From the NCBI GenBank assembly GCA_002723085.1, contig PBNK01000004.1:10578-74577 (forward strand): a DNA stretch of 64,000 bases. Reading direction: 5' to 3'. Position numbers and translations under genes: made by a program. The notes below the pieces were generated by a model. The model made no database searches. It was not told where the DNA came from and saw only the letters and a program-made list of their open reading frames with translations. Positions 16,872-43,840 of this stretch are shown here, one piece after another; positions within the stretch are counted from its first letter, which is position 1; each line of letters starts with the position of its first letter. This stretch comes from Crocinitomicaceae bacterium (GTDB taxonomy: Bacteria; Bacteroidota; Bacteroidia; Flavobacteriales_D; Parvicellaceae).

Positions 16872-17551
16872 TTTTGACCAACTATTATAATTTCTTCACT
16901 TAGATGAGGCCAAAACTTACTCGCAATATTTTGTTTCCAGTGAGAAAAATTATTTCTATGAAATAGTTTAACAACTTTAAACCCAACATCTTCAAAAATT
17001 TTTTTGAGTTCATAATCTCTATATTCTTTTACATGCATCCAACTATCCCAAATCATATATTTTCCAGAGGGGTTACAATATTTAACATACTCCTCACCCA
17101 TGTCAACATATTCAACAACCTCTTCAGTTAATGCTTTTCCTCTAAATAATTTCATCACCCTATCCAATGAACCACCATTTACAGTGGATAAATAAAAATA
17201 TCCATTTTTTTCAAGTTTATTATATGCTTCTTTTAAAACAATATGTGGAGGGAATCTAAAATGAGCAATAGCATGTATTAAAGAAAAACATTGAACATTT
17301 TGCTCAATAACTTTTTGAAATGAAGAAGAAAAAAACTCCCCCTTAAACACATTAATTTCGTAGTCTTTACTCCAACTTGTTCGATTTTCAAAATCCCAAG
17401 GGGCTTCTAAACAACAAATATTTTTGCCTTTATTTTTAAGCTCTATAGCAATCTCTCCTCTTCCTGGTCCTAAATCACAATAATCATTTACTCCAAGATC
17501 TAAAAGATCATTAACAGTGTTTTTATATCTTAATACTTCAGATTCTCTCAT
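16868..17551 (-). CDS. Class I SAM-dependent methyltransferase
   Basis: This 227-residue Rossmann-fold methyltransferase has motif I at YCDLGPGRGEIAIEL (around 22-36), the acidic loop CCLEAPWDF, and motif IV-like CFSLIHAIAHFRFP, with LEKNGYFYLST as the post-motif strand. It likely methylates a sugar hydroxyl, carboxyl or amino group of the surface glycan. It sits between NeuB and the DUF4910 protein with one-base and 4-bp overlaps, so these three are probably co-translated. Confidence 0.85.
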   Translation of the reverse strand: MRESEVLRYKNTVNDLLDLGVNDYCDLGPGRGEIAIELKNKGKNICCLEAPWDFENRTSWSKDYEINVFKGEFFSSSFQKVIEQNVQCFSLIHAIAHFRFPPHIVLKEAYNKLEKNGYFYLSTVNGGSLDRVMKLFRGKALTEEVVEYVDMGEEYVKYCNPSGKYMIWDSWMHVKEYRDYELKKIFEDVGFKVVKLFHRNNFSHWKQNIASKFWPHLSEEIIIVGQK

Positions 17552-18624
17552 TAATCAATATTTTTCCATTTTAAAATATCATCTTCTTTAATGTCAAATA
17601 AAGCTTTTTTACCAATAACATTATTTATTTCTCTAGGACTAATTCCATGAGCAGGTCTTTTCCAAGTTAAATGATTATAATCGATTTTAGTTCCTGCAGA
17701 TATATCACAAGAGGCTACTAAACTTCTTCTTGCATTTTTTCTAGCAGGTTCTTCTGATGGTAGAGAAGTTATTTTTTCTTGTCCTAAAAGTACCTCCGCA
17801 TGTTTTACTTTTTTCCAAAAAAGTTTCAAATCTTCTTTATCCATTGCATGATAATGATCATTACCAGGCAGGCTCTTATCATGAGTGAAATGTTTTTCAA
17901 TAATTTTCGCACCCAATATCCAAGCATATAAGCAAGTATCCATACTTTCAGGTAATGTGTGATCAGAATATCCTGTTACTGCTTTTGGGAAATTATTTGA
18001 TATATCTTTTATCATTGCAATATTAGCATGTTCGTTTGGTGTAGGGTAATTTAACACACAGTGCATTAAGCATAATTCATTTCCTTTTTTTTCAATCAAT
18101 TCTACTGTTTGCTGTATTTCCCACAAATATGATGCACCAGTAGAAAGAATTATTGGTTTATTAAAATCACACATAAACTCAATAAATGGCAAATTTGTAA
18201 TATCAGAAGAGGATATTTTAAAAACAGGCATTAAATCATTTAAAAATTTAGCAGACTCAACATCAAAAGGGGTACTCATAAATTCAATATTTGCGGTCTC
18301 ACAATATTTAGCTAATTGCTCAAACTCCTTTTTCCAAAATTTATCATATTTCTTAAACAATTCATGTTGACTTCTAGTGGGTTCTTTGGATAAATCCCAA
18401 TAATAAGGACTGTCTTTTGATGCTATGGTGTCTGCCTTATAAGTTTGAAATTTAATTGCTTGAGCACCGCCTTCTGACGCTTCATCAATTAATCTTTTTG
18501 CTAAATCTATTGATCCTTCATGATTTACCCCTGCTTCAGCAATTACATAAGGTTTACTATTAAGAAGTATATTTTTGTTATTTATAACGTTATTAATTTT
18601 CACCACATTATTTTTAGAGATCAT
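17551..18624 (-). CDS. neuB: N-acetylneuraminate synthase family protein (NeuB)
   Basis: This 357-residue protein has the NeuB TIM barrel (residues 20-270) with IAEAGVNHEGSIDLAKRL, IKFQTYKAD, KISSSDITNLPFI, ILSTGASYLWEI and VTGYSDHTLP. A C-terminal SAF/antifreeze-like domain follows (290-355, RPAHGISPREINNVIGKKAL). The family condenses phosphoenolpyruvate with an amino-hexose to make nine-carbon nonulosonic acids (sialic, legionaminic, pseudaminic). Which acid cannot be told, because no recognisable NeuC, PseB or PseI partner is beside it. An SpsF-like nucleotidyltransferase at 33906 could be its CMP-activating partner. Confidence 0.88.
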   Translation of the reverse strand: MISKNNVVKINNVINNKNILLNSKPYVIAEAGVNHEGSIDLAKRLIDEASEGGAQAIKFQTYKADTIASKDSPYYWDLSKEPTRSQHELFKKYDKFWKKEFEQLAKYCETANIEFMSTPFDVESAKFLNDLMPVFKISSSDITNLPFIEFMCDFNKPIILSTGASYLWEIQQTVELIEKKGNELCLMHCVLNYPTPNEHANIAMIKDISNNFPKAVTGYSDHTLPESMDTCLYAWILGAKIIEKHFTHDKSLPGNDHYHAMDKEDLKLFWKKVKHAEVLLGQEKITSLPSEEPARKNARRSLVASCDISAGTKIDYNHLTWKRPAHGISPREINNVIGKKALFDIKEDDILKWKNID

Positions 18625-35856: not shown

Positions 35857-38790
35857 TTAATCTAAATAGAATTTATTAAAAAACTTAATTTCACCACAAG
35901 TGTTATCAGATATTCTAATAAAATAGATTCCAGATTTAATAGCATTTAAGTCAATTTGCTGTACAAAACTATTTAAATAGGAATGATGAATTTCTTTTCC
36001 ATCTAAACTATAAATTGACAGACTTAAATCATTTTTTAAAATACTAAGGATATTTATGTTAAGAATTCCATTTAAAATATTAATACTTATGTCATTGTTG
36101 TTAACTAAAGATGGCACAAAAGAAAAAGGATCGATGACAGTTATTGTTTTTTGAATTGTATTGGAACAAGTTCCAACACTATCACTGAAAGCTGATAATT
36201 GAATAACATAAGATCCTGAAGTGCTATAATTATGTGTAGGATTATATAAATCTGATGAAACTCCATCACCAAAACTCCAATTATAATGAGTTGCTCCCGT
36301 TGAAATGTTTTTAAAATCAACTGTAGCTAAACCATTTGTATCTAATAAAAATGTATCCGAAAAAATTAAAAAGTCAGGTATTACTTCTTGAGGTTCAACA
36401 ATAATTATTTCCTGATTTGTCAAAGCGCATGAACCAATATGATTAGTAGAAATATTATATATACCTGCATTTAATCCAGTAAATGAAATAGAATCTTGAT
36501 TTGCTGTAATTGAGCTAATAATTATTCCACTAGAATCTACTAAATTAAAATAATTCCCCTGTAAAGATGGGCCAGTAAGAGTAACTAACGAACTACTATC
36601 TTGAAAACATGTTGAATTTGTTACATTAATGTCATAATCGACATTAATTTGTAATTTAAACCTTGGAGAAGGGGCTAAAGAATCTGAAGTGAAAGAATAA
36701 GAGCTATCAGTTCTTAAATCTGTAATTATACCATTATGTAAGTCTTCAAGTGTAAGACAAGATCCAATCATAAACTGAGGAAGACTTTCAAAACTAAGAG
36801 TATAATCTCCATGAACATATTGTCCAGTCTTAACATCAAAATTCAAATCAACACTTTGATTATTATTTATACAAATTCTATCAATCAAATTGCTATCATT
36901 ATCAACAAAATATAAATTAGAAACATAATCAGGATAAGGAGATAATATTTTTGGCATTTCAAAAAGTGTATCATAATCCATTGAAAAGTTTGCATCTGCA
37001 TATACATATGCAAAATCATATGGAGCTACACTGTCATGTGAATGAATTCTTAATTTCAAAGGGTTATTAACTCCATTAGTTGATTTAACGAAGGTAGGAT
37101 TACTAAAGATTGTTTGATCAACCTTAAATAAAATGCTTGTACCAGTAGTCTCTATAAGAAAACCCTGATTTTGGGAAATATGATCTGAATTTCCTTTAGA
37201 AATCCAACTTCCGCAACCAGAAGGACAACCGCCAACTCCAGAAAAAATCCAATAACCAGTTTGATTAACGGATGCATTATCATTATTTAATTCATCATAA
37301 TCCAAGGAAGCAGGATAAGGATTAGATATAACATTATATCCATTGCCAGCATTAGAAGTTGATATAGTAAAATCATCAAATTCAGGGGCCCTAGATCCTC
37401 CATTTGACATAACAAGAGTTTTATTATCATCCCCATCATAAATAAGTGTTCCTGAACCACCTGAAATAGACTGATTAATTGAACTAACATTATTAAATCC
37501 ATCAGTACTAGTATTATATGTTTTTACACTGTGGAACCCTCCACAGCCAGACAAAGTGTGATTATTTCCAGCTAATCCTCCTGTTATTCCACAAAAAACA
37601 AATTCATCATCAACATCATTTAATGTTGAACTTTTAATTGGTGAGCTTATCATTCTCCAACCATTTGATAAACCGCTTAAAAACCTATTTGAAGTAAATA
37701 CACCTGAAGAATAAGAATAATCAGCACTTGCACTACTTACATCGACCATTCCTGCTTTATCATCAGTATTACTTTGCAAATTAACTGTTGATCCATTTTG
37801 AGTAACGGTTCCATTAGTTGATTGCATAACATCAGAAATATTTAAAATCACATTAGACCCTAATGTCAAACCACTAGAGTTGTTTAAAATTAATTGACTG
37901 ATGTTCATTATATTTGATCCTGTTCCAGAAATTGCTTGTGGAGAACTACCATTAAAGTTCAAAGTAATAGATGTGGTATTTAATTCACTATTATTTGATA
38001 AAACTAAATTACCTTTTATATCAATGTCTCTTGTAAAAGTATTATTAGCAGAAATTGATAAATTTCCATTAATAATAACATTAGTCCCACCTCCATAACC
38101 ACCAGATCCAAATGTATTGGCAGCATTTAATGCTACATTTTTATAAGAATCATCTGGAATGGGTAACTCTCCAGAAACATTTACTTCAATATCACCATTT
38201 ACAGATTCTAATGAATTAGTAAACTCAAGATCATTTAAAATAATTTTGCCACTATTTAAAACATAACAATCAGAACTATTGCTTTGTACCTTATTGTTAA
38301 ATGTTATGGTCTTACCCACTCTTATGTAAAGATCAGCTCCAGCACTTAATAAAACTGGTTTATCAAACGTAAAGTTCCCATCTAAATAGAAATAAGATCC
38401 ATATTTAACTATACCAACATTAGAAAATGTCCCTGTTCCATCAATATCATTTGTATTCCCAGGTTCAATCCAGCCATTTTGAATTAGCCCATTGTTTTCA
38501 AAGGTTTTTCCTGTAGATATTCTAAGTTCATATCCATTATTATCTAACTCCAATGTCCCACCAACATTAACAATAAAATTGGCACACCTAGCGTATTGTG
38601 TTTCAGAATTATCATGAGTAATTATATCTCCAGCTAATATAGTTACGTCATCAGAAGAAGTTGGAATGCCAACAGGGTTCCATGAATTAGCATTAAACCA
38701 ATTGCCTCCACCAGTACCATTTGATTGATAAGAAATCCCCCAAAAAGAATTAACAAATAATAAAAAAATTAGTGTATGTGTGATTCTCAT
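35857..38790 (-). CDS. Secreted PKD-domain protein with T9SS type A sorting tail
   Basis: This 977-residue protein has a signal peptide (residues 1-18) and a beta-helix-like stretch rich in G-T-N/N-G-T repeats (residues 50-350). A PKD domain lies around 820-885 (YNWSFGDGVSSDLYNPTHNY), and the C-terminal ~80 residues have LSIYSLDGKEIHH and KSGIYFIRISDN, a type A sorting domain of the type IX system. Such cargo crosses the outer membrane and is anchored on the surface, in Porphyromonas via A-LPS. Being embedded between wzc and the transferases of a polysaccharide operon suggests coupled surface assembly, which is inference. Confidence 0.85.
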   Translation of the reverse strand: MRITHTLIFLLFVNSFWGISYQSNGTGGGNWFNANSWNPVGIPTSSDDVTILAGDIITHDNSETQYARCANFIVNVGGTLELDNNGYELRISTGKTFENNGLIQNGWIEPGNTNDIDGTGTFSNVGIVKYGSYFYLDGNFTFDKPVLLSAGADLYIRVGKTITFNNKVQSNSSDCYVLNSGKIILNDLEFTNSLESVNGDIEVNVSGELPIPDDSYKNVALNAANTFGSGGYGGGTNVIINGNLSISANNTFTRDIDIKGNLVLSNNSELNTTSITLNFNGSSPQAISGTGSNIMNISQLILNNSSGLTLGSNVILNISDVMQSTNGTVTQNGSTVNLQSNTDDKAGMVDVSSASADYSYSSGVFTSNRFLSGLSNGWRMISSPIKSSTLNDVDDEFVFCGITGGLAGNNHTLSGCGGFHSVKTYNTSTDGFNNVSSINQSISGGSGTLIYDGDDNKTLVMSNGGSRAPEFDDFTISTSNAGNGYNVISNPYPASLDYDELNNDNASVNQTGYWIFSGVGGCPSGCGSWISKGNSDHISQNQGFLIETTGTSILFKVDQTIFSNPTFVKSTNGVNNPLKLRIHSHDSVAPYDFAYVYADANFSMDYDTLFEMPKILSPYPDYVSNLYFVDNDSNLIDRICINNNQSVDLNFDVKTGQYVHGDYTLSFESLPQFMIGSCLTLEDLHNGIITDLRTDSSYSFTSDSLAPSPRFKLQINVDYDINVTNSTCFQDSSSLVTLTGPSLQGNYFNLVDSSGIIISSITANQDSISFTGLNAGIYNISTNHIGSCALTNQEIIIVEPQEVIPDFLIFSDTFLLDTNGLATVDFKNISTGATHYNWSFGDGVSSDLYNPTHNYSTSGSYVIQLSAFSDSVGTCSNTIQKTITVIDPFSFVPSLVNNNDISINILNGILNINILSILKNDLSLSIYSLDGKEIHHSYLNSFVQQIDLNAIKSGIYFIRISDNTCGEIKFFNKFYLD

Positions 38791-38801
38791 ATTAATTTAA
38801 T

Positions 38802-41186
38802 TTAGTTATTTTTAACTTTTTCTCCATATCCATATCCATATCCATATCCATATCCATATCCATATCCATATCCGTATCCATATCCATATTTTCCATAATA
38901 ATATTTCCATCTGCTATTTTTGATAGAATTTAAAATTAAGCCACTGCTATTAATTTTAGATTTCTGAATAATCTCTTCTAAAAACTTTAATCCTTTTTTG
39001 TTTGCGAATTTTGTATTCATAACAAACAAAGAATGATCAACTAGAGAAGACAAAACCAGAGCATCCGTTATATAACCAATTGGTGGAGTATCAATAAAAA
39101 GCAAATCATATTTTTTTTCTGCATAATTAATTAATTCAATTACCCTATTTGACATAACCAATTCTGAAGGATTTGGGGGAACTGGACCACTAGTAATTAC
39201 ATCTAAATTCTCTTCAATATTCACATTAGATGAATCAAAAGAAGATTTTAGAGATAAATTTGTTGAGTTTCCTTTTTCATTTGATAAGTCTAAAACCTTA
39301 TGAACTTTGGGTTTGTGCATATCAAAATCAACAACTAAAACTTTTTTACCTGATGACGCAAAAATTCTAGCAAGGTTTAAAGTTGTAAATGTTTTACCTT
39401 CTCCTGGGTGAATTGAAGTAATCAAAAATGATTTTAAATTAACATTATCCTTTTTTTCTTTTGAAAGAAGAAAATTAATGGCCGTTCTAATAGACCTTAA
39501 TGATTCAACAAAATGGTCTTTCGATCTAATTTTAATGTCCATTAAATTTTTTTCATCTTTTAATAAAGAAACTCCTCCCAAAACTGGAACAATAGTGTTT
39601 TCTGCTAATTCTCTAACATTTTGATATTTTTCAAAAAATATTTTTTTTATTATTGAAATCAAAATTGAAAATAAAAAACCTAAGCTTATAAAAATATAAA
39701 CATTAGAATTTGACTTCCCTCCTACAAGACCAATTGTTCTTGCTTTTTCAATAATTTTAGTTTGAGGAACAATACCAGATTTAGCTATATAAGTATTGGC
39801 TCTTTTTTCTAACAAAAACTCATATAATTTTTCATTTACCTCTAATTTACGTTGAATAGTAACTAAATCTCTTTCAGAAATTGGTATTTTTTTCACCAGA
39901 GATTTGAAATGATTTATTTCAAGTTCTTCAGATATAATTTCATCTTTAATTGCGTTAATTAAATTTTCAATATAATCTAAAAGTTCTTTTCTATTATTTA
40001 TTATTGATTCTTGAGATCTGTTTAATTCTTGATGACCCTGTTTATAATCGTGCTTTAATTCAGCATATTTTAATTGTAATTTATAAAATTCAGAAATTTT
40101 ATCAGATAAAATTTTATCATTTCCATTTATATATAATGATGGAGGTATAATCTTTTCGTCTTTAGTATTGAGAATAGATACTTTCAAACTTTCATAAGAC
40201 TTTAACCTTATATTTAACTCACGTTTTTTTGACTCATGTAACATTAAAGACTGAAAATACTTTTCTGATTCTTTATCAACATCAAGAATGCCTTTTTTAT
40301 TCCTCAAGTTTTGAAGATCATCTCCAATGGAGTCAATTACTCTTACTACATCCTCCAATTGATAATTAATATAAGTAAGCGTATTTTCATTAATATGAAA
40401 CTGATTTTCAAGAGTGTAATTTATGTATTCATTAGCTAAAGTATCTAAAATAATTCTTGACCTATTTGGAATCTCATCAATCAAGTTAACAGTTAGTAAG
40501 GATGTATAATCAACATTTTCAACCGTTAAATTTGATATAATTTTATTTACCCAAAAATCATCATTATGAAAAATTACTTGATAATTAATTGAAGATAGTT
40601 CTGATTTGTCATTATCTGAATAGTTTAAAAGAGATGTATTTATTGAATAGTGAATATTTGTTTCCAAAGAATCAAATGAGTGGACAAAAACTTGTTCTTT
40701 ACCATCTAAAATAAAATTAAGTTCATATTTCTTATTGTCTAGTATTCTAAAACCAATAGGAAGTTCAAAAATATTGGAATTAAAAATATCAACATCAATT
40801 TTAAATGGAAGACCTTCAAAAAACTCTTTGGTATTTAATCTTCCAACAATGTAATATGAACACTGTAAATCAAGCTTGTTTAAAACGTTTTTAATCATAT
40901 CATAAGAACTAATTATTCTAATTTGATTAGCTACATCCCCATAATAATTATAAAAACCAAGATTAGAGTATAACCCTTCTTGATAATCATATACATCATT
41001 TGATTTTAATAAAATTTCAATTTTAGTTTGGTGTTTTGCAATTTGTTTATGATTAAATAGTAATCCAAAAAATAAAAAAATTGGGACTATGATAACAAAA
41101 ACATACCAATTTTTTTTGATTGCTTGAAATAACCAAACGATGTCATTTGTACTTATAATATTTCCAGGTTTTTTCAAATCTGACAT
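38802..41186 (-). CDS. wzc: Wzc-like tyrosine autokinase / polysaccharide co-polymerase
   Basis: This 794-residue inner-membrane protein has an N-terminal Wzz domain with one helix near residues 28-46 and a second near 485-505. The BY-kinase domain lies between about 555 and 765: Walker A SIHPGEGKTFTTLNLAR, Walker A' VLVVDFDMHKPKVHK and Walker B LLFIDTPPIGY. The C-terminus has a Tyr-rich tail with about ten Gly-Tyr repeats after WKYYYGKYG, the phosphorylation cluster. It controls chain length and export. It is the first gene of the long minus-strand run and shares an 89-bp intergenic region with the exosortase module. Confidence 0.9.
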   Translation of the reverse strand: MSDLKKPGNIISTNDIVWLFQAIKKNWYVFVIIVPIFLFFGLLFNHKQIAKHQTKIEILLKSNDVYDYQEGLYSNLGFYNYYGDVANQIRIISSYDMIKNVLNKLDLQCSYYIVGRLNTKEFFEGLPFKIDVDIFNSNIFELPIGFRILDNKKYELNFILDGKEQVFVHSFDSLETNIHYSINTSLLNYSDNDKSELSSINYQVIFHNDDFWVNKIISNLTVENVDYTSLLTVNLIDEIPNRSRIILDTLANEYINYTLENQFHINENTLTYINYQLEDVVRVIDSIGDDLQNLRNKKGILDVDKESEKYFQSLMLHESKKRELNIRLKSYESLKVSILNTKDEKIIPPSLYINGNDKILSDKISEFYKLQLKYAELKHDYKQGHQELNRSQESIINNRKELLDYIENLINAIKDEIISEELEINHFKSLVKKIPISERDLVTIQRKLEVNEKLYEFLLEKRANTYIAKSGIVPQTKIIEKARTIGLVGGKSNSNVYIFISLGFLFSILISIIKKIFFEKYQNVRELAENTIVPVLGGVSLLKDEKNLMDIKIRSKDHFVESLRSIRTAINFLLSKEKKDNVNLKSFLITSIHPGEGKTFTTLNLARIFASSGKKVLVVDFDMHKPKVHKVLDLSNEKGNSTNLSLKSSFDSSNVNIEENLDVITSGPVPPNPSELVMSNRVIELINYAEKKYDLLFIDTPPIGYITDALVLSSLVDHSLFVMNTKFANKKGLKFLEEIIQKSKINSSGLILNSIKNSRWKYYYGKYGYGYGYGYGYGYGYGYGYGYGEKVKNN
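38827..38886. repeat. Hexanucleotide tandem repeat (tatcca) in wzc 3' end
   Basis: Ten consecutive 6-bp units run on the plus strand, all tatcca except one tatccg at 38869-38874. A related tctcca unit precedes the array. On the coding strand each unit encodes Gly-Tyr, so gain or loss of units changes the number of tyrosines in the kinase tail without shifting frame. Near-perfect identity of units indicates recent slippage. Confidence 0.95.
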
Positions 41187-41275: not shown

Positions 41276-41461
41276 ATGGCAAATAAATTAATATTAATTT
41301 TTGTTTTTACAGCAATTTCTCTTTGCGTATTCGGTCAAGGTATACCTCCAGGTGCTCCATGTTGGCCTCCGCCATGTGTGCCAATTGATGGTGGTTTGTC
41401 AATTTTTATTGTACTAGCTGCTTTCTTTGGTTATAAATTATCATTTAAACCAAAAAATTAA
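41276..41461 (+). CDS. Short secreted peptide with PIDGG-TM-basic sorting tail
   Basis: This 61-residue protein has three parts. Residues 1-21 are a signal peptide (LILIFVFTAISLCVFGQ). About 15 residues follow, rich in Pro with two Cys (GIPPGAPCWPPPCV). The tail has PIDGG, a single hydrophobic helix (LSIFIVLAAFFGYKL) and a basic end SFKPKN. Motif-helix-basic is the tripartite layout of exosortase substrates, and PIDGG-type tails are known on small Bacteroidota proteins (sometimes called PID-CTERM; recalled, not checked). The next gene, 1 nt away, encodes an exosortase-like enzyme, supporting a substrate role. What the tiny mature peptide does is unknown. Confidence 0.82.
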   Translation: MANKLILIFVFTAISLCVFGQGIPPGAPCWPPPCVPIDGGLSIFIVLAAFFGYKLSFKPKN

Positions 41462-41462
41462 T

Positions 41463-42026
41463 TTGAGAAAATTAATTATATCATCCATTCATCCTGCAGC
41501 AAAGTTTATTCTATTATTTCTAATAGGTTTAATTATTTGGTTTACATTTTACCACTTTCTATATAAGATTGATTTGTTTTATGGAGATTCACAAAATACT
41601 CTATTGGGCTTTTCTAAATTATTAGGTCATCAATCAAATTTCATTTTGGAAATATTAGGCATCAACACAATTTTAGAAATTAATGGAGAAATGGTTGTAA
41701 CAAAATTAGTTGATTATCCATATAATCATGGTGTTTGGATAGGAGAACCCTGCAATGGAATCAAAATTTTTGGAGTGTTTTCTATTTTCATTATTTGTTT
41801 TCAAGGGAAAATTTTAAATAAAGTTTGGTTTATATTATTTGGCATTTTAATACTACATATTCTTAATGTAATTAGGATTGCTACCTTAACCTACATTGCT
41901 GCTGTTCAACCTTTATGGCTAAATTTTAACCACAATATTACATTTCAAGTCATTATATATGGAGCAATGGGTGCTCTATGGTTAATATGGATTAAAAAAC
42001 TATCTAAAACTGAAAAATCAAACTAA
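41463..42026 (+). CDS. Small exosortase-like membrane peptidase/transpeptidase
   Basis: This 187-residue polytopic protein has about five hydrophobic helices. GVWIGEPCNGIKIFG carries Cys97, HILNVIRIATL carries Arg138, and WLNFNHNITF carries His157. This Cys/Arg/His order and spacing, with the Cys in E-P-C-N-G and the Arg in N-x-x-R-I, is that of the exosortase/archaeosortase family, which cleaves C-terminal sorting tails at the outer face of the inner membrane. The enzyme is shorter than classical XrtA (about 280 residues or more). I choose a TTG start at 41463 (RKLIISSIHPAAK), 1 nt after the peptide stop; an ATG at 41427 would overlap the peptide gene. Confidence 0.83.
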   Translation: MRKLIISSIHPAAKFILLFLIGLIIWFTFYHFLYKIDLFYGDSQNTLLGFSKLLGHQSNFILEILGINTILEINGEMVVTKLVDYPYNHGVWIGEPCNGIKIFGVFSIFIICFQGKILNKVWFILFGILILHILNVIRIATLTYIAAVQPLWLNFNHNITFQVIIYGAMGALWLIWIKKLSKTEKSN

Positions 42027-42522
42027 ATATATTATTCCATGCTTAATTATCTTATGCTCGGTATCTTTTGATTTTTTGAGAGATTATTTTTTTGTAAATG
42101 CAAATTTTAAATTAAATTATCTAAACCATTTAAGCAAAGGAAATTTAAATGTTGTTAATTATACAGACTCTGGTTTTGAATATTTATTTAATTCTCTAAA
42201 TAAGGAGGCATTAATAAATTTAAAGTGGGGAATGTCTTTATTTTATTGCCTAATCTTTTATTTCATCGGGCTATTATTCGCTTATATTTATTTGGCTAAA
42301 CATAATTTTAAGCTTTTTTTTAAATTAAAATCATCTGGATTAATATTATTAATTTTTATAGCTATTATTTTTCACTTATTGAGCTATTATTCTATTGGAG
42401 ATTACAAATATAATTTATACTATATTTCTCTAGAATTTAGTCATTTTGCTCAGTCTTCATTGTTTCCACTAGTTTTTTTGATTGTTTTTTATGCTTATAC
42501 AAGTTTAAATTCTTCATCCTAA
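42010..42522 (+). CDS. Exosortase-associated four-helix membrane protein
   Basis: The reading frame encodes one N-terminal helix (YIIPCLIILCSVSFDFL), a hydrophilic loop of about 55 residues, then three helices and a short Ser-rich end. No ATG exists in the first part. A TTG at 42076 would cut off the first helix, so I favour CTG at 42010 (KNQTKYIIPC), overlapping the exosortase gene by 17 bp. It has no catalytic motif. Small membrane proteins of this kind often follow exosortase genes in Bacteroidota, and its role may be to assemble or target the enzyme. The start is uncertain and the 42076-42522 core is firm. Confidence 0.65.
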   Translation: MKNQTKYIIPCLIILCSVSFDFLRDYFFVNANFKLNYLNHLSKGNLNVVNYTDSGFEYLFNSLNKEALINLKWGMSLFYCLIFYFIGLLFAYIYLAKHNFKLFFKLKSSGLILLIFIAIIFHLLSYYSIGDYKYNLYYISLEFSHFAQSSLFPLVFLIVFYAYTSLNSSS

Positions 42523-42559: not shown

Positions 42560-43840
42560 ATGTACAACGACAATGAACTTTTTGATTTAATTAAAAAAGA
42601 ACACCATAGACAAACAAATGGCATCGAATTAATAGCTTCTGAAAATTACGCTAGTGAAAGAGTTATGAGTGCTTCAGGATCTATTTTAACTAATAAATAT
42701 GCAGAAGGTCTTCCGAACAAAAGATATTATGGTGGTTGTGAAGTAGTGGATAAAATTGAACTATTAGCTATAGATCGATTAAAAACGCTTTTTGGGGCAG
42801 AATGGGCAAATGTTCAACCTCACTCTGGTTCTCAAGCTAATGCTGCGGTAATGCTTGCCTGTTTAAAACCGGGTGACAAAATACTTGGATTTGATTTATC
42901 TCATGGAGGTCATTTAACTCACGGTTCTCCTGTTAATTTTTCTGGCAAACTTTACGAATCACATTTTTATGGAGTTGAAAAAAACTCAGGTGAAATTGAC
43001 TATGATAAGGTTAAAAAGCAAGCGCTTGAAGTCAAACCAAAATTATTAATTTGTGGGGCTTCTGCTTACTCAAGAGATTGGGATTATAAATTACTTAGAG
43101 AAATTGCTAATGAAGTAAACGCATTGCTTTTGGCTGACATTTCACATCCAGCAGGACTTATAGCATCTGGAATTTTGAACAATCCTATTCCTTATTGTCA
43201 CATTGTAACCACAACTACTCACAAAACATTAAGAGGTCCTAGAGGTGGAGTAATTATGATTGGTAAAGATTTTGACAATCCATGGAATTTAAAATTTAAA
43301 TCTGGTAAATTAAAAAGCTTTTCTTCTTTAATTGATGGAGCAGTTTTTCCAGGAACTCAAGGTGGCCCATTAGAACATACAATTGCTGCAAAAGCAATTG
43401 CTTTTAAAGAAGCACAACAACCTGAATTTAAAAACTATTGTAAAAACGTATTAGATAATTCTCAATTAATGGCCAAAGAATTGATAAACAAAGGATATCA
43501 AATAATTTCTGGAGGAACAGACAATCATTGTATTTTAATAGATTTAAGAAATAAAAACATTTCCGGTAAAGATGCAGAAATCACTCTTGGGAAATCTGAT
43601 ATTACAGTAAATAAAAACATGGTTCCATTTGACACAGAATCACCGTTTGTCACTAGCGGAATCCGAATAGGCACTGCAGCAATAACAACAAGAGGAGTTT
43701 CAGAAAACGATATATTAACTATAGCCAATCTAATTGACCAAAGCATTTCAAACTTTGATAATGAATCAGAACTAAATAAAATTAAAAATCAGGTAAATGA
43801 ACTAATGAGTTCAAAACCTTTATTTCATTGGAATCAGTAA
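42560..43840 (+). CDS. glyA: Serine hydroxymethyltransferase
   Basis: This 426-residue PLP enzyme interconverts serine and glycine with tetrahydrofolate. [10 protein letters not shown] at the start, [28 protein letters not shown] and [15 protein letters not shown], with the Schiff-base Lys around residue 226, are exact family signatures, and the length is normal. It is cytoplasmic and supplies one-carbon units. The ATG start at 42560 precedes [11 protein letters not shown]. It begins 37 bp after the exosortase module and is followed 2 bp later by the fumarylacetoacetase gene. Confidence 0.97.

Follow-up and report, generated by a model that had tools for sequence, protein, structure and literature searches.

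A predicted exosortase X peptide-sorting module beside wzc in a Crocinitomicaceae bacterium

Results

Gene content of the locus

The window, by which we mean the whole stretch of 64,000 nucleotides analysed (contig PBNK01000004.1, positions 10,578 to 74,577), carried a compact three-gene module next to polysaccharide genes (Table 1). An earlier note, made from the sequence alone, had described three open reading frames joined by a 1-nt gap and an overlap, divergent from wzc across 89 bp, and we found exactly this arrangement.

Table 1 Features of the module and its direct neighbours (window coordinates).
Feature	Position	Strand	Remarks
Wzc-type polysaccharide co-polymerase/tyrosine kinase (wzc)	38802..41186	-	divergent, 89 bp from peptide ORF
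PID-CTERM peptide precursor	41276..41461	+	61 aa, ATG start; NF046080 E 9.7e-6
CWPPPC two-cysteine motif	41360..41377	+	directly precedes PIDGG; Cys29 and Cys34 nearly invariant
PIDGG sorting motif, presumed cleavage region	41381..41395	+	P36, D38, G39 and G40 invariant
XrtX-type exosortase	41463..42026	+	187 aa, TTG start, 1-nt gap after peptide ORF
XrtX-associated membrane protein	42010..42522	+	~170 aa, overlaps exosortase gene, start uncertain (CTG 42010?)
glyA (serine hydroxymethyltransferase)	42560..43840	+	PF00464 E 3.8e-163; downstream neighbour

The protein encoded directly behind wzc (35857–38790, minus strand) was 977 aa long and had G8, PKD and type IX secretion tail domains; similar proteins were found near the module in 20 loci. 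In the large polysaccharide cluster (1789–35837, minus strand), visual inspection of the translations suggested genes for glycosyltransferases, an ABC-transporter pair, two genes resembling asparagine synthase and one resembling nonulosonate synthase (17551–18624). The Wzc of the window had a long C-terminal Tyr/Gly repeat tail (KYGYGYGYG...EKVKNN), likely a tyrosine-phosphorylation cluster, and the Wzc of locus L146 had a similar one. No Rfam families were found in the region, promoter and terminator scans of it stayed at shuffle level, and the plasmid collection contained no relative.

The peptide precursor

The first gene encoded a predicted signal peptide (~residues 1–20), a mature part (QGIPPGAPCWPPPCVPID), PIDGG, a transmembrane segment and a C-terminal basic tail, which is the layout that characterizes PID-CTERM substrates. 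Its score with NF046080 was 25.3 bits, against a cut-off of 26, and reached 26 together with the in-frame neighbours; the genome-wide search counted it as above the cut-off. It was the only PID-CTERM site in the genome, which also had a single XrtX match. The peptide is thus, from its sequence, the likely substrate of the exosortase, as had been proposed in the earlier note.

The conserved positions listed in Table 1 come from an alignment of 25 peptides, in which Gln21, located directly after the predicted signal peptide, was also nearly invariant. Among 61 distinct peptides of the order, all had a Cys 0–4 residues ahead of P[IVL]D, and 55 had exactly two cysteines. With a few longer ones set apart, the predicted mature part of the order's peptides, counted to the Asp, had a median of 24 residues (range 10–80; the extremes are unsure because a simple rule was used). 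The mature peptides had a median of one Ser/Thr, and that of the window had none. In another genus the open frames were 113–122 residues long, with a Cys before PIDSG in most of them, in one at a longer distance.

The exosortase

The second protein scored 47.2 bits with TIGR04178 (cut-off 23), which places it in the exosortase/archaeosortase superfamily and bears out its earlier identification. The best named subfamily was XrtX (NF046081, E 8e-34), with 116.9 bits, below the curated cut-off of 170, a value also not reached by any match in 64 of the order's 121 genomes with XrtX. The XrtF model (TIGR04128) gave E 8e-23. XrtF membership was rejected, since the 81.5 bits obtained were below the cut-off of 90 and, in a tree of 73 enzymes built by a quick method with a simple model, the window enzyme fell within the XrtX group of its order, outside the separate XrtF clade (SH-aLRT 100). 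With PF09721 (EpsH) the protein reached 16.8 bits, below the gathering cut-off of 25.7; the Pfam EpsH search of the whole genome gave no match; this exosortase family is too distant from PF09721.

Cys97, Arg138 and His157 (codons at 41751, 41874 and 41931) occurred in the order previously described. They were invariant in the 29 aligned homologues; the enzyme was present in 30 of the 40 genomes searched. The CNG and NxxR motifs were also kept in the 29 sequences. They resemble the Cys-Xaa-Gly and Asn-Xaa-Xaa-Arg motifs which, together with a HxxxG motif, were described in EpsH by Haft et al. (PMC1569441). The last of these was not kept, being His-Xaa-Xaa-Thr-Phe here, which we counted against an assignment to an XrtX module. 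The enzyme had been called unusually small. Its size is normal for the subfamily (model lengths of 168 positions for XrtX, 174 for XrtF and 158 for XrtH), and it is small only when compared with EpsH (254). The AlphaFold2 model was confident (pLDDT 90). No solved exosortase structure was matched by sequence, and fold searches in the PDB with the models of the exosortase and the third protein returned nothing under E 0.001.

The third protein

The third protein had been taken for a four-helix protein; six helices were predicted, and its AlphaFold2 model was confident (pLDDT 94). The frame was open through to 42522. No ATG, GTG or TTG start was present in the overlap, and none preceded the first transmembrane helix (stretch considered, 42010–42076); the homologue alignment put the start at ~42010 (CTG) or at another near-cognate codon. 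The TTG listed as start, at 42076 and first in frame, would cost the protein its first transmembrane helix. This implies that translation begins at CTG or some other near-cognate codon, or that the assembly is wrong here.

The window's own protein matched no family, NF046082 included, which we also counted against the XrtX assignment, along with the scores of the enzyme and the peptide below their cut-offs. Of its 30 aligned homologues, 24 matched NF046082 (best E 5e-21). The XrtX-associated and XrtF-associated proteins were homologous (hhalign 95%, E 3.9e-8). Because the best subfamily match of the enzyme was XrtX, the homologues of the third protein matched NF046082 and the enzyme branched within the group of its order, we file the window genes, by sequence comparison, as a divergent XrtX system.

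All three parts of such a system are named in NCBIfam, and the arrangement is therefore not new in kind. We found no mention of PID-CTERM in the literature searched, which covered few subscription papers. The system is named by NCBI and apparently unstudied.

One enzyme and one peptide across genomes

PID-CTERM sites were found in 96 of the 249 genomes of the order (a single one in 92) and XrtX in 121, with both in 95. The sole genome with only a PID-CTERM site owed it to a weak match within a 1434-aa frame. The short PID-CTERM model misses some real peptides and hence undercounts them among the 26 genomes with only XrtX, at least five of which (G004, G009, G016, G019 and G095) had a peptide recognizable by eye. 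Linkage alone does not account for the association, because in one genus the two genes were far apart. Since nearly all PID-positive genomes have one enzyme and one peptide, with a mature part of ~24 residues, a tiny lone peptide is the rule and not an oddity.

Some families outside the class (L218–L222 and others) had one exosortase and up to nine similar PID peptides, e.g., QPGLPSAPSQAPIDGG. Some of these peptide genes were in adjacent pairs, and most were unlinked to the exosortase.

Linkage with wzc

The neighbourhood comparison recovered the module together with a wzc on the opposite strand, mostly directly upstream, in 63 of 76 loci, the window included, as the earlier note had expected; five of the 13 loci without such a wzc lay at contig ends. 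The gene order was the same in dozens of genomes, and the three-gene arrangement is therefore not due to chance. glyA adjoined the module in some loci only and was not counted as a member of the system.

The wzc link is not universal, because in one genus of the order (L125–L128, L161–L169) the exosortase gene lay at a distance from wzc as well as from the peptide gene, and five of the six loci read outside the order had no wzc near the enzyme. Where enzyme and peptide were adjacent in other families (three loci), wzc was nearby in one. Gene linkage with wzc does not show contact between peptide and glycan. The peptides of the genus with the separated genes were longer and Cys-rich, and ended in PIDSG.

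The earlier note had named as refutation a missing exosortase profile match together with unconserved Cys, Arg and His, or else peptide homologues without the tripartite tail. We found a profile match, all three residues conserved, and the tripartite tail in the peptide homologues. Overall, its interpretation was partly supported, its core being mostly right.

XrtF and PID-type peptides in Flavobacteriaceae

Some of the PID-CTERM-positive genomes outside the order carried XrtF, and their peptides were tiny, proline-rich and free of Cys, e.g., PPPPMPPPPPGLPIDGG. A profile (A4) built from six such Cys-less, XrtF-associated peptides was searched in 149 Flavobacteriaceae genomes. It matched in 96 of them, XrtF was found in 94, and both occurred in 91. 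Three genomes had only XrtF and, once two weak matches in longer frames were removed, three had only the peptide, all of these being 84–88% complete. The co-occurrence gave a Fisher p of ~1e-32 (7e-32 without the profile-building genomes), in a test that ignores shared ancestry. The peptide gene was mostly single and unlinked to XrtF (L347, L231–L260). In Flavobacterium johnsoniae CI04 (L347) the match (E 3.2e-6) was a proline-rich peptide of ~71 residues, ending MPINEDLPYLIIAGLILGTAVIYRNKIKKASV / ...PPLDMPINEDLPYLIIAGLILGTAVIYRNKIKKASV. With its divergent motif, this peptide is a candidate XrtF substrate and serves as a lead.

Discussion

A probable peptide-sorting module

The gene identities, the conserved residues, the one-to-one pairing of enzyme and peptide, and the linkage to the partner gene and wzc are consistent with a peptide-sorting module. 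We consider it probable that XrtX cleaves the PID-CTERM peptide at PIDGG and moves the new C-terminus to an acceptor in the envelope, with a probable link to polysaccharide export. The 61-aa precursor would be exported by Sec and cut by signal peptidase near Gly20/Gln21, while its C-terminal helix and basic end would keep it in the inner membrane. Cys97 of XrtX, aided by Arg138 and His157, would then attack PIDGG and release the helix. The new C-terminus of the mature peptide of ~18 residues (QGIPPGAPCWPPPCVPID) may be transferred to an amine-bearing acceptor, a step modelled on the lipid transfer proposed for the archaeosortase ArtA. The third protein would be the partner of the enzyme. The peptide may serve the surface polysaccharide made and exported via the neighbouring Wzc system, and the joint anchoring of peptide and glycan, as suggested in the earlier note, is compatible with the data.

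In the literature, exosortases and archaeosortases are regarded as enzymes that cleave their substrates and transfer them (PMC7157517, PMC11980579, PMC1569441), and the model for ArtA has a Cys thioester followed by transfer to ethanolamine (PMC7157517). The disruption of EpsH in Methylobacillus left the exopolysaccharide unaffected (PMC1569441), which we counted against the sorting module.

Since a shared Cys is lacking from the peptides across the phylum and their Ser/Thr are few, the simplest general link is one through the C-terminus. O-glycosylation was set aside as a general link, on account of the few Ser/Thr in the mature peptides and their lack in that of the window.

In the least probable of the alternatives, which we regard as very unlikely, the peptide would not be a substrate at all and would stay uncleaved, as a small regulatory membrane subunit of Wzc or of the exosortase complex. 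The precursor is indeed little beyond a signal peptide, a linker and one helix. However, PIDGG, helix and basic tail form a recognized sorting signal, other families pair one exosortase with up to nine mostly unlinked peptides, and the peptide gene of Flavobacteriaceae, though unlinked, co-occurs with the enzyme. Slightly less improbable, and still quite unlikely, is a lipidation of the Cys by PIDGG such as has been proposed for MYXO-CTERM; XrtX would then cut off the helix, and a mini-lipoprotein with a lipid anchor would remain. In the order, this Cys is present in every one of the 61 distinct peptides, and MYXO-CTERM has an invariant Cys as well, required for cleavage (PMC11980579). A disulfide fits two cysteines per peptide equally well, however, and the related PID peptides outside the order, the XrtF-paired ones included, have no cysteine. 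Cys lipidation therefore cannot be the common mechanism, and was set aside as such.

We also find it unlikely, if less so, that XrtX acts as a release protease only, freeing a short soluble signal or antimicrobial peptide with no covalent attachment. Such a peptide would be proline-rich, possibly with an N-terminal pyroglutamate and a disulfide loop, in keeping with the tiny mature part, the nearly invariant Gln21 and the two cysteines of most peptides; nor was a constant acceptor-making gene seen beside the module in the loci compared. Yet the peptide core is strongly conserved across genera, unlike in typical variable bacteriocins, the recurring neighbour is wzc and not an exporter or immunity gene, and the substrates of exosortases and archaeosortases are believed to stay anchored (PMC11980579).

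Relation to known systems

The sorting module has the same gene types as the NCBI-named system of PID-CTERM, exosortase X and XrtX-associated protein (NF046080, NF046081, NF046082), and its enzyme and peptide match the models. It differs in that its members are below the curated cut-offs and its third protein is unrecognized, and in the two cysteines that the peptides of the window's order have. The XrtF system (TIGR04128, TIGR04127; Fjoh_1448, Fjoh_1449) has a homologous enzyme and partner and a tiny proline-rich PID-type peptide, whereas its enzymes form a clade of their own and its peptide, without cysteines, is encoded elsewhere in the genome. With EpsH/PEP-CTERM the module shares two sequence motifs, the tripartite C-terminal signal and the polysaccharide neighbourhood. 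EpsH differs from the window enzyme in its greater size and eight or more helices, in its many diverse protein substrates and in carrying the His-Xaa-Xaa-Xaa-Gly motif. ArtA with PGF-CTERM belongs to the same superfamily, and a Cys thioester and transfer onto an ethanolamine lipid have been proposed for it, in parallel with the reaction considered here. It is archaeal, however, and the substrates known for it are large surface proteins, e.g., the S-layer glycoprotein.

A link between exosortase systems and exopolysaccharide has been recognized since 2006. In the present system the substrate is nearly all processed part, occurs once per genome and is encoded beside wzc. A substrate this small makes the reaction open to direct mass spectrometry of the peptide.

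In F. johnsoniae the deletion of xrtF or Fjoh_1449 abolished zorbs and much reduced biofilm, and the authors stated that the substrates of XrtF are still to be found (PMC10936215). We counted the need for both homologous genes in biofilm formation in favour of the sorting module. We tentatively extend the sorting reading to XrtX and XrtF across Bacteroidota, as a possibility that we hold to be doubtful. Both may share one substrate class, namely secreted mini-peptides that are rich in proline, a few tens of residues long and nearly devoid of anything else, and whose C-terminus would be attached to a surface glycan or to the lipid carrier of that glycan. Such a peptide may be the missing substrate behind the xrtF biofilm phenotype of F. 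johnsoniae. If true, the product would be a cell-made peptide–glycan conjugate. Through the co-occurrence in Flavobacteriaceae, the tiny PID-type peptides emerge as a concrete family of candidate substrates of XrtF.
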